Position numbers and translations under genes: made by a program
In this document: in pieces, positions 6,765 to 9,297 of the stretch
Layout of the letters: every line of letters starts with the position of its first letter
Position numbering within the stretch: the first letter of the stretch is position 1
IMG/VR virus record: IMGVR_UViG_3300025909_000002
Location: 1 to 42,909 of that record
Reading direction: 5' to 3' (one strand)
DNA length: 42,909 nucleotides
From: a virus
The notes under the pieces: generated by a model
Database searches by the model: none
What the model saw: the letters and a program-made list of their open reading frames with translations, nothing else
Told to the model about the DNA's origin: nothing

Positions 6765-7223
6765 ATGGCAAAGAACAGCCTGAAACAGCCTCGCAAGTCG
6801 CGCCGGAAAGCGCCCGAGGAGCGGCTTCGAGAGCCGACGTCGGGAGGCTTCAAGCCCGGGGACCCGCGCATCAATTACAAGGGCCGTCCGCCGGACCTCG
6901 GCGGATATCGCCGCATCCTCCGGGAGGAGGGCGAAGAAAAGGCGCTCAACTACCTCTTGGCGTGCATGGAGCTCGGCCCGAACCCCGAGCGCCCCTGGGA
7001 AGACCCGCGCCGGCCGAACCAGCTGGGCCTCCAGGCGGCGATTGAATGGCTCCACCAGAGCCGCGGGAAGCCGCGCCAGCAGGTACAACTCACCGGCATG
7101 GATGACGGGCCGGTGCGCGTCGCGGGCGGGCCGGACCTCTCGAAGCTGTCCGTCGCGGAGCTGAAGGCGTGGCGTGACCTGGTCCGTAAGGCACAGCCCG
7201 AGGCGGAGGCGTCGGTCCAGTGA
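6765..7223 (+). CDS. Putative terminase small subunit (DUF5681-like N-terminus)
   Basis: A 152-residue basic protein directly upstream of the large terminase. The N-terminal motif GGFKPGDPRINYKGRPP is typical of short proteins that precede phage terminases (DUF5681-like, sometimes annotated as small terminase). A helical centre (GGYRRILREEGEEKALNYLL) and C-terminal helix (VAELKAWRDLVRKAQPEAEA) follow. Small terminases recognise the packaging site and load the large subunit. The assignment rests on position and the N-terminal motif; the ribosome binding site is weak. Confidence 0.6.
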   Translation: MAKNSLKQPRKSRRKAPEERLREPTSGGFKPGDPRINYKGRPPDLGGYRRILREEGEEKALNYLLACMELGPNPERPWEDPRRPNQLGLQAAIEWLHQSRGKPRQQVQLTGMDDGPVRVAGGPDLSKLSVAELKAWRDLVRKAQPEAEASVQ

Positions 7224-7459
7224 CGGCGCGCCCAAAGCGGACGGGAAGGGCCGCTGGCAAGACCCAGCCCAAGCGGAGGCGGCGCCGGAGGAGGAGTTTC
7301 AAGTGCGAGCGCTGCAATAGGGTGACGGAGATTCTGGTTCCGGTTGAGGTGACCAGCCTCGGACCGGCCGGGTGGATGATCGCCGAGACGAAGAACTGGC
7401 GCGTGCTTGTGTGCGCTCTCTGCGCGAGAGACGTCCTGAGGTTCCTAGGCCAGGAGTGA
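7220..7459 (+). CDS. Arg-rich zinc-ribbon protein between the terminase genes
   Basis: A 79-residue protein with GTGA overlap. A very basic N-terminus (about eight consecutive Lys/Arg residues near position 20) precedes FKCERCNRVTE, and CALCARDV closes a four-cysteine zinc ribbon near residue 67. It is probably a nucleic-acid-binding accessory of packaging, since it lies between the putative small and large terminase genes and its stop overlaps the terminase ATG. No known family recognised. Confidence 0.55.
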   Translation: MTARPKRTGRAAGKTQPKRRRRRRRSFKCERCNRVTEILVPVEVTSLGPAGWMIAETKNWRVLVCALCARDVLRFLGQE

Positions 7460-9297
7460 TGGAAGGTCTCCCCAGCCTTGCGGAGCTCGACCGGGAGATA
7501 GCCCTCAAGTCCCTGGTGGACTGGGTTCCGTACCTCTCTCCGCGCTACCTCCCGCCAGAGCACCTCCGGCCCTTCCTCTCGCGCATCGAGGAGGCGGTGT
7601 TAGGCGGGAAAGAAATTCGCGCGGTGGTGCACGCGCCTCCCCGCCACTCGAAGACAGAGAGCATTCTCCACAGCATCCCGTGGGGCCTGAAGCACCGGCC
7701 CGACTGGACGTTCGGATACACGTCGTACAACGCGGACATTACCCGCTCGAAGTCGCGCATCTCCCTGGACCTGGCGCGTAGCGCGGGCATTCACCTTGCG
7801 ACGGACAACCTCACCGAGTGGCGGACCCCCCAGCGCGGCGGATGCCTGGCCAGGGGCATCGGCGAGGGCCTGGGCGGCTACGGCCTGAACTGCTTTCCTA
7901 CGGGCACGCTGGTGGCCACGGAGTCCGGGCAGGTGCCCATAGAACGACTCGTCCGGGCGCCCTCCCCGCCTCGGGTATGGGCGTTCAACCACGCGACTGG
8001 GAGAGCGGAACTCCGTCGGATTCTAGCGGGACGGGAAATGCGTTCGCCCCGCTCTCTCGTGGAGGTCATGAGCGGACACGGGCTCAAGGTAAGGTGTACG
8101 GATGACCATCGCATCTGGGCGGCCGGTGCCTACCGCGCAGCCGGGGACGTGCAAGCCGGTGACCCTCTCTTGCGACTACTGCCGTGCAACGTTCCTTCGG
8201 CCGTACGGGGTGCATCGGAAGCACCAGCGGCGAGGGTGGCGCCTCTGTCATGCCTGTCACATGACCCACCACCACTCGGCCGAGACTCAATTTCGTGGGT
8301 TAGGGCGATTGGCAGCTCAGCGGACCCGGTCTTCGACATCCAAGTGGAGGGCCTCAGTAACTTCTTTGCGAACGGCGTACTCGTCCACAACTGTGCGTTC
8401 GTAGATGACGCGGTGAAGGACCGGCTCGAGGCGGAGAGCGCCCGGAAGCGCGAGGTGAAGTGGGACTGGTTCCAGAACGTGCTGATGACGCGCATCGAGC
8501 CGAAGGGCTCGGTCTTCGTGTGCATGACTCGGTGGCATGCCGACGACCTCTCCGGGCGGCTCATCAAGATGGGCTGGGAGTACATCCGCCTCCCGGCGCT
8601 GAACGACGCGGGAGAACCGCTCTGGCCGGAACGCTGGCCTAAAAGCGCATTGGAGCAACGGCGCATTGATGTCGGGGAGTACGTCTGGGCCTCCCTCTTT
8701 CAGGGCGTGCCACGTCCTCGTGGCGGCGCGGTGTTCGGTGACCCCTGGGGCTATGCAGAATTGCCGAACCCCGCCCTTCCCCGTCGCCATGGCATCGGGT
8801 TGGACTTCGCCTTCACGAAAAAGACGTCCAGCGACTACTCCGCCCTCGTCGTGATGATGTCCTGCGAAGGGTACTTCTACGTCCTCGATGTGGTGCGAGT
8901 GCAGATGCGCGCCCCCGAGTTCAAGGAAGTGATTCGGGCCTATCGAGCCCGCTACCCCACGGCTCGCCTGCGCTGGATTGCGGCCGGGACAGAGGTGGGC
9001 GTCGCGGACTTCGTGCGAGAGGCAAAGCTACCCATCGAGTTGGTGACGGCGAGGGAAGACAAGTTCGTCCGGGCGCTGGGGTATGCGGCGGCCTGGAACT
9101 CTGGACGCGTGCTCGTGCCGGAGGACTCCACCGCCCATCGATGGGTGGACGAGTTTCTCGTGGAACATGCCGAGTTCACCGGGGTGAATGACGCGAAGGA
9201 TGACCAGGTGGACGCCGCTGTGGCGGCCCACGGCGTCACAGGCGCCCCACCCCCGAGCTACGAAGCCATGCCGGAGAGTACGAAACCGAGGATGTGA
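7459..9297 (+). CDS. terL: Terminase large subunit interrupted by a mini-intein
   Basis: A 612-residue precursor; after removal of the 167-residue intein (145-311) the mature terminase would be 445 residues, normal for phage large terminases. The ATPase half has a Walker A-like APPRHSKTE (59-67) and a Walker B-like FVDDAVKD just after the downstream splice junction. The nuclease half has Asp449 in GLDFAF and DDQVDAA at 581-587 as metal ligands. It drives ATP-dependent DNA packaging into the Mu-like prohead. The start is the ATG overlapping the previous stop with CCAGGAG upstream. The intein sits at a conserved ATPase motif, where terminase inteins are known to insert. Confidence 0.92.
   Translation: MEGLPSLAELDREIALKSLVDWVPYLSPRYLPPEHLRPFLSRIEEAVLGGKEIRAVVHAPPRHSKTESILHSIPWGLKHRPDWTFGYTSYNADITRSKSRISLDLARSAGIHLATDNLTEWRTPQRGGCLARGIGEGLGGYGLNCFPTGTLVATESGQVPIERLVRAPSPPRVWAFNHATGRAELRRILAGREMRSPRSLVEVMSGHGLKVRCTDDHRIWAAGAYRAAGDVQAGDPLLRLLPCNVPSAVRGASEAPAARVAPLSCLSHDPPPLGRDSISWVRAIGSSADPVFDIQVEGLSNFFANGVLVHNCAFVDDAVKDRLEAESARKREVKWDWFQNVLMTRIEPKGSVFVCMTRWHADDLSGRLIKMGWEYIRLPALNDAGEPLWPERWPKSALEQRRIDVGEYVWASLFQGVPRPRGGAVFGDPWGYAELPNPALPRRHGIGLDFAFTKKTSSDYSALVVMMSCEGYFYVLDVVRVQMRAPEFKEVIRAYRARYPTARLRWIAAGTEVGVADFVREAKLPIELVTAREDKFVRALGYAAAWNSGRVLVPEDSTAHRWVDEFLVEHAEFTGVNDAKDDQVDAAVAAHGVTGAPPPSYEAMPESTKPRM
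7891..8391 (+). other. Mini-intein within the large terminase
   Basis: The protein segment from Cys145 to Asn311 has intein splicing motifs. Block A is CFPTGTLVATESGQVPIERL with nucleophilic Cys1. Block B is HGLKVRCTDDHRIWA with the TxxH motif. Block F is VFDIQVEGLSNFFANG. Block G ends in LVHN followed by Cys+1 of the extein. At 167 residues it lacks room for a LAGLIDADG endonuclease. The region between blocks B and F (about 8165-8300) is low-complexity in this frame but encodes a zinc-finger-like segment in the +1 frame. Confidence 0.92.
8150..8290 (+). pseudogene. Out-of-frame zinc-finger segment inside the intein
   Basis: In the frame +1 to the intein, codons at 8171 and 8180 give CDYC and codons at 8246 and 8255 give CHAC followed by His, with basic residues between (GVHRKHQRRGWRLC). 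This is the layout of zinc knuckles in HNH-type proteins. It lies where inteins carry homing endonucleases. A pair of compensating indels in an ancestral in-frame domain would explain it; a chance pattern or genuine dual coding remain possible. Confidence 0.5.

Follow-up and report, generated by a model that had tools for sequence, protein, structure and literature searches.

Inteins are classically presented as a splicing domain and an endonuclease domain nested in one polypeptide. Fractured genes, reportedly described by Dassa and colleagues in 2009, are split inteins whose two halves flank a homing endonuclease gene that stands on its own. Among phage inteins, the dCTP deaminase intein of cyanophage CL131, whose excision has been shown in E. 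coli, carries an HNH in the same reading frame as the splicing domain (PMC6293099). Inteins of the terminase large subunit (TerL) of mycobacteriophages have been designated a to g, and one of them (TerL1-e from Gaia) is located at the Walker B motif (Kelley et al. 2016, PMC5050341). An out-of-frame HNH has been reported in the ShiLan domain of mycobacteriophage DNA methylases, in which no self-splicing domain was found (Arsenault, Gosselin and Gogarten 2025, PMC11855218). The title of a preprint on actinobacteriophage inteins of non-canonical architecture (Gosselin, Arsenault and Gogarten, bioRxiv 10.1101/2025.01.02.630785) and its citation in PMC11855218 suggest that it deals with overlapping frames in phage inteins; Gorbalenya 1998 is also cited in PMC11855218 for overlapping frames. 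In the other open papers searched, no description of an intein with an endonuclease in another frame was found.

The window analyzed here, i.e., the whole of a virus record of 42.9 kb, carries a TerL gene interrupted by an intein (Table 1). The insertion point lies immediately upstream of the Walker B motif (...GYGLN/C...HN/CAFVDDAVKD, slashes marking the intein borders). All the residues expected of a class 1 intein (C1, T70 and H73 of block B, H166, N167 and Cys+1) are present, and blocks A, B, F and G with all the catalytic residues are in the splicing frame, in agreement with the sequence-only reading, according to which the splicing residues looked intact. The AF2 model of this intein (pLDDT 89.8) has the Hint fold, its top Foldseek matches in the PDB all being inteins (RecA, DnaB, DnaX; E 1.8e-9), and its confidence is low only around residues 101-120, the stretch that codes for the +1-frame finger. 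The intein is presumably self-splicing. No finger or HNH match was found in its splicing frame. Just 5′ of TerL, a small ORF (7220-7456, 79 aa) with a CERC...CALC pattern possibly encodes a zinc ribbon protein; it has no family match in PHROGs or Pfam.

Table 1. Features of the intein-interrupted TerL gene (positions in the window)
Feature	Positions	Strand	Evidence or remark
TerL gene, intein-interrupted	7459-9297	+	PHROG 38 terminase large subunit, E 3.2e-63; Pfam Terminase_6C, E 1e-10
Class 1 intein, 167 aa (CFPTG...VHN/C)	7891-8391	+	Pfam Intein_splicing, E 5.4e-8; TIGR01443, E 3e-7
Intein block A, including Cys1	7891-7926	+	C1 invariant across 20 mini-inteins of this site
Intein block B, TxxH (T70, H73)	8059-8118	+	T70 and H73 invariant in the mini-inteins of this site
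Nested +1-frame ORF	8102-8404	+	Predicted start ATG 8102; alternative start GTG 8159 within the GD codons GGT GAC
First complete zinc finger of the HNH protein, predicted remnant in the +1 frame, VTLSCDYCRATFLRPYGVHRKHQRRG	8159-8236	+	HNH profile positions 61-88 or 45-88
Putative deletion junction, approximate	8237-8242	+	Profile matched collinearly at positions 45-88 and 260-315
Last HNH knuckle, LCHACHMTHHH, +1 frame	8243-8275	+	Profile positions 260-270; L072 and L125 keep the same remnant
Intein blocks F and G (VFDIQV...FFANGVLVHN), then C-extein Cys+1	8323-8391	+	D149, H166 and N167 invariant; TIGR01443

Between blocks B and F, translation of the +1 frame of the intein gives VTLSCDYCRATFLRPYGVHRKHQRRGWRLCHACHMTHHHS, in which CDYC spans 8171-8182 and LCHACH spans 8243-8260. 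The third-position GC of the splicing frame is 0.50-0.57 at 8164-8298 versus mostly 0.7-1.0 in the exteins, and that of the +1 frame is 0.70-0.73 over the same positions; the codon-position GC thus switches to the +1 frame there. The +1 peptide of the window was scored against a profile of the nested HNH proteins of its relatives (see below) that had been built without the window. It matches this profile in order at positions 45-88 (first finger half) and 260-315 (last HNH knuckle and tail), and about 170 profile positions (about 89-259), including the catalytic HH...N core, are absent from the +1 ORF. The tail match is not independent evidence, since the tail overlaps block F of the intein itself. 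Once this tail is excluded, the finger half scores 13.6 bits. When the splicing frame was recoded synonymously 20,000 times, this value was reached once; none of 5,000 shuffles reached it. The LCxxCHxxH pattern was found in none of the 20,000 recodings. A generic CxxC...CxxC, which arose by chance in 324 of them (1.6 percent), is weak evidence alone, and the 11-residue knuckle by itself is not significant once bias-corrected. Searched alone, the +1 peptide has no match in Pfam and only weak ones in PHROGs (E 0.013) and NCBIfam (E 0.16).

The zinc-finger-like segment that the sequence-only reading had noticed in the +1 frame is real, its reading CDYC...LCHACHMTHHH was correct and its borders were about right; the fossil endonuclease suspected there, where homing endonucleases sit, is corroborated by the match to the HNH profile at its two ends but not in its core. 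The sequence-only reading had expected that, if there were no such fossil, relatives would lack an in-frame finger and the +1 frame would match no profile; the relatives do lack it, but the +1 frame has a clear match once the nested-HNH family is built. As read from the sequence, the remnant is a fossil HNH endonuclease made by an in-frame internal deletion and not by a frameshift, and we consider the window a decayed member of its class because the catalytic HH...N core is absent. Searches for related loci with the TerL of the window and with the +1 peptide returned none, the finger peptide gave only chance matches among plasmids and in the PDB, no DNA similarity was found with phage records, and a search for a window-like TerL pattern had L088 as its sole match. 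The best identity of the Hint domain to that of any relative is 53 percent, and no close relative was found; the exact deletion is therefore not readable from a sister sequence, the local DNA alignment with the nearest full-length inteins being too diverged for base-level mapping.

A tblastn search identified an intein at the identical TerL position in Gordonia phage Clown. The splicing frame of this intein stays open over 385 codons. In the protein that its +1 frame encodes, CxxC...CxxC fingers are repeated and an HNH motif is present (HHINEDPSDN...NLVALCSTCHAQHHH), the GC periodicity following the +1 frame in mid-intein and the splicing frame at both ends. In a structure search, the Clown HNH had no more than weak fold-level matches, to HNH proteins (e.g., Cap5 and McrA) and to zinc-finger proteins. 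Synechococcus phage S-EIVl has the same arrangement, with the insertion one residue off. A scan of IMG/VR with a degenerate DNA pattern (C-terminal splice junction plus Walker B) revealed at least 119 loci. Among the matches listed, and counting in Clown, S-EIVl and the window, 104 inteins were delimited, of which 85 are full length (295-460 aa). An open splicing frame together with a multi-finger HNH in the +1 frame was found in 82 of these 85 (3-9 CxxC in a +1 frame open over 225-440 codons); CxxC are usually absent from their splicing frame and few in their +2 frame, and none of the 82 has an in-frame HNH or finger domain. The other three (L013, L027 and L050), near copies of one another with 348 aa each, are devoid of nested HNH; their endonuclease may be ordinary and in-frame.

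When 73 distinct nested proteins from the matches listed were aligned, both catalytic-site His and the Asn of HH...N proved invariant. Pfam HNH is matched by 26 of 32 sampled +1 proteins (E down to 3e-7), and the nested-HNH profile matches solved HNH proteins (e.g., 5h0m, E 2e-5). A single-HNH query in the search for related loci found only itself. Prophages of two cultured bacteria, Streptomyces glaucescens (L151) and Fictibacillus arsenicus (L154), have the same architecture, as do several MAGs. Two loci of 24-26 percent GC (L097 and L150, the latter from Candidatus Gracilibacteria) were considered as having a broken splicing frame, a reading that we rejected: both frames are open if TGA encodes glycine, consistent with code 25, and the +2 frame is full of stops.

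Substitutions were counted between related pairs among the matches listed, splicing codon position 1 being the wobble base of the +1 frame. The counts at positions 1/2/3, summed over pairs that share members, are 4099/2410/2053 in the HNH region and 1033/723/1489 in the N-terminal Hint part of the same pairs. Separate pairs agree (65/22/18 for L106/L038, 101/29/17 for L085/L022, 113/62/52 for L060/L053 and 75/38/29 for L019/L119); comparisons involving the divergent L110 have no position-1 excess. Furthermore, among the matches listed, none of 78 loci has a stop in its splicing frame, compared to 1.84 stop-free loci expected if codons are redrawn with the HNH protein sequence held constant. 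Although an open splicing frame was required for delimiting full-length loci, this filter is not the source of the result, since the undelimited loci are contig-edge cases open to the edge, one code-25 case and L117 (open, with a diverged N end). To judge from these substitution and stop patterns, selection acts on both frames and the nested +1 HNH is under purifying selection.

The TerL intein of the window, which has the site, the open frame and both HNH ends, thus very probably belongs to a class in which a gene encoding a multi-finger HNH endonuclease overlaps the intein in the +1 frame, the copy of the window having been inactivated by internal deletion. The ribosome translating TerL would read the middle of the intein as a tolerated filler loop, and the Hint domain would splice this filler out. 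A second initiation inside the intein would produce the HNH protein, predicted to be an active nuclease, which would cleave TerL genes that lack the intein and promote homing; the latter is suggested by the HNH family, the site and the patchy distribution. Many nested ORFs have a GTG at conserved Gly-Asp codons (GGTGAC), as at 8159 in the window, and others have an ATG and SD-like bases; no uniform ribosome-binding site was found upstream of the nested ORFs. The start codons given for the window in Table 1 are candidates. In the window, a deletion of a multiple of three bases, from mid-finger to the last HNH knuckle, would have removed the catalytic HH...N while leaving both the splicing frame and a short +1 ORF open, which would have generated a near-mini-intein with an out-of-frame endonuclease scar.

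Other short inteins of the Walker B site carry comparable remnants: a finger plus LCRPCH in the +1 frame of L125, LCAYC-LGLCRTCH in L112, CESCHMTHH only in L072 and a similar HNH end-remnant in L023. A 197-aa TerL intein (L041:1469-2059) is the reverse of the window deletion, its +1 HNH core being kept and its zinc fingers lost. In a tree of the splicing domains of loci among the matches listed, which relies on few columns and does not place the window firmly, short forms are scattered among full forms and the well-supported branches (e.g., L155 with L147, L040 with L118) force at least eight changes. In Brochothrix phage BL3 (L003:1900-2607), the TerL intein is broken by stop codons followed by ATGATG (gp2/gp3) and has zinc-finger remnants in another frame; it is perhaps a split intein that descends from an intein with an overlapping endonuclease.

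An independent scan of IMG/VR for the HNH motif HHIDENPxNN, rather than for inteins, gave 64 loci. An intein C-terminus lies downstream in 32 of them, the HNH being out of the splicing frame in 28 of these 32 inteins and in frame in only four; in-frame HNH inteins were found at other sites (L163, L186, L199 and L202). Ten of the 32 have the HNH in the +1 frame (mostly at the TerL Walker B site, one in DNA polymerase I) and 18 in the +2 frame (TerL C-terminal DAxRY site and others). Seven inteins, several of them at the DAxRY site of TerL (L158, L164, L168, L173, L180, L191 and L209), have a compact ATG-started +2 HNH ORF of 174-236 aa and no stops in their splicing frame, and a phage DNA polymerase I intein (L169), located before SSDPNLQNIP, has its HNH ORF in the +1 frame. 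In none of the 24 out-of-frame cases that are new to the Walker B set does a stop interrupt the splicing frame over the length of the HNH ORF; for each of the 15 distinct cases, recoding would give such an open frame with a probability of 0 to 7 percent. In this sample, which is small and redundant and includes some weak intein C-terminal matches, out-of-frame nesting appears to be common and to have arisen in both alternate frames.

How the remnant came to lie out of frame can be explained in several ways. The scenario put forward in the sequence-only reading, i.e., an ancestral in-frame HNH domain moved out of frame by two compensating indels, could draw on the existence of classical in-frame HNH inteins at the other sites listed above. 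However, no relative of this site among the matches listed has in-frame fingers, the HNH-bearing ones share the +1 frame and the purifying selection acting on it, and no fewer than 82 double frameshifts would have had to occur in parallel; this history is refuted as a general account and is extremely improbable. Sequencing indels, also envisaged there, do not account for the pattern either: assembly errors are excluded because phage isolates that have been sequenced, and prophages of cultured bacteria, carry the same out-of-frame HNH. The remaining suggestion, true overlapping coding, is the one that the relatives bear out. Since their +1-frame HNH is intact and under purifying selection, the out-of-frame position is probably ancestral. 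That the +1 knuckles merely arose by chance in the GC-rich coding sequence of an ordinary mini-intein is very unlikely: recoding does yield CxxC...CxxC at the low frequency given above and the +1 peptide alone matches no curated family, but the profile score and the LCxxCHxxH pattern are reached by one and none of the recodings, respectively, the two ends of the HNH family are matched collinearly, at the place and in the frame seen in relatives, and other mini-inteins hold similar remnants.

Two further proposals concern expression. The short +1 ORF of the window could still be translated into a small peptide that binds zinc (e.g., a DNA-binding regulator or a homing inhibitor), as it remains open and as the deletion brought two CxxC together at a distance that could suit one zinc, with comparable joins in L125 and L112. 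We nevertheless find this unlikely: it relies on a single sequence, such joins may only mark where deletions are tolerated, and L072 has kept nothing but the last knuckle. Alternatively, the HNH of full-length relatives might be produced by ribosomal frameshifting from the intein and not from a separate start, in line with the lack of a uniform ribosome-binding site. This is quite improbable, given that the +2-frame class at other sites consists of compact ORFs (174-218 aa) with an ATG just inside, that L096, L115 and L082 have a stop shortly before a start codon with SD-like bases, and that frameshifting would also result in a fusion with TerL.

Beyond the overlapping, separately initiated endonuclease that we favor for the Walker B site, we lean towards the view that HNH-bearing phage inteins have widely converged on out-of-frame nesting, which would have arisen in either alternate frame, in several genes and at several sites, across many hosts and even under code 25. 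The endonuclease would be made without splicing and shed by a single in-frame deletion, the window being one of several independent decay products. If an overlapping gene encodes the endonuclease, selection acts in two frames on one stretch of DNA, and splicing and endonuclease can be expressed and lost separately. An overlapping endonuclease would explain the seemingly featureless middles of annotated phage inteins, and surveys limited to one frame would miss nucleases in inteins labelled endonuclease-free. In-frame deletion would be a route to mini-inteins, and split inteins may perhaps arise through a stop and a start in the filler, as in BL3. These inteins also provide a natural set of overlapping genes, in intact and decayed states, for the study of how overlaps arise and vanish. 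Overall, with intact relatives present in dozens of phages, an enzyme hidden in a second frame appears to be a recurrent and selected way to build such mobile elements.

Compared to fractured genes, the inteins described here share an endonuclease translated apart from the splicing domain, but their splicing polypeptide is continuous and is overlapped by the endonuclease. The CL131 intein is likewise a phage intein with an HNH but, unlike here, in-frame. Gaia TerL1-e also is a TerL intein placed at Walker B; we rejected it as the same element, since it has a long in-frame ORF, no nested HNH fingers in other frames and a different insertion residue. The closest likeness is with the ShiLan domain (PMC11855218), which has an open host frame, an out-of-frame HNH with zinc fingers, a proposed GTG start and a patchy distribution, and whose HNH aligns with the nested HNH of Clown (E about 3e-7 to 6e-5). 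However, the HNH is in the third frame in ShiLan and in the +1 frame in TerL inteins. Furthermore, the window has a Hint domain and is thus not of the ShiLan type, defined by the absence of a splicing domain: the TerL case lies inside a complete Hint intein, which would remove the filler from the host protein. Out-of-frame insertion of an HNH was therefore already known from ShiLan, reported as a non-intein. For inteins, priority is subject to the 2025 preprint, which, to judge from its title and its citation in PMC11855218, may already describe part of the TerL overlapping-frame class; its title places its scope in actinobacteriophages, whereas the present set of inteins extends well beyond them.
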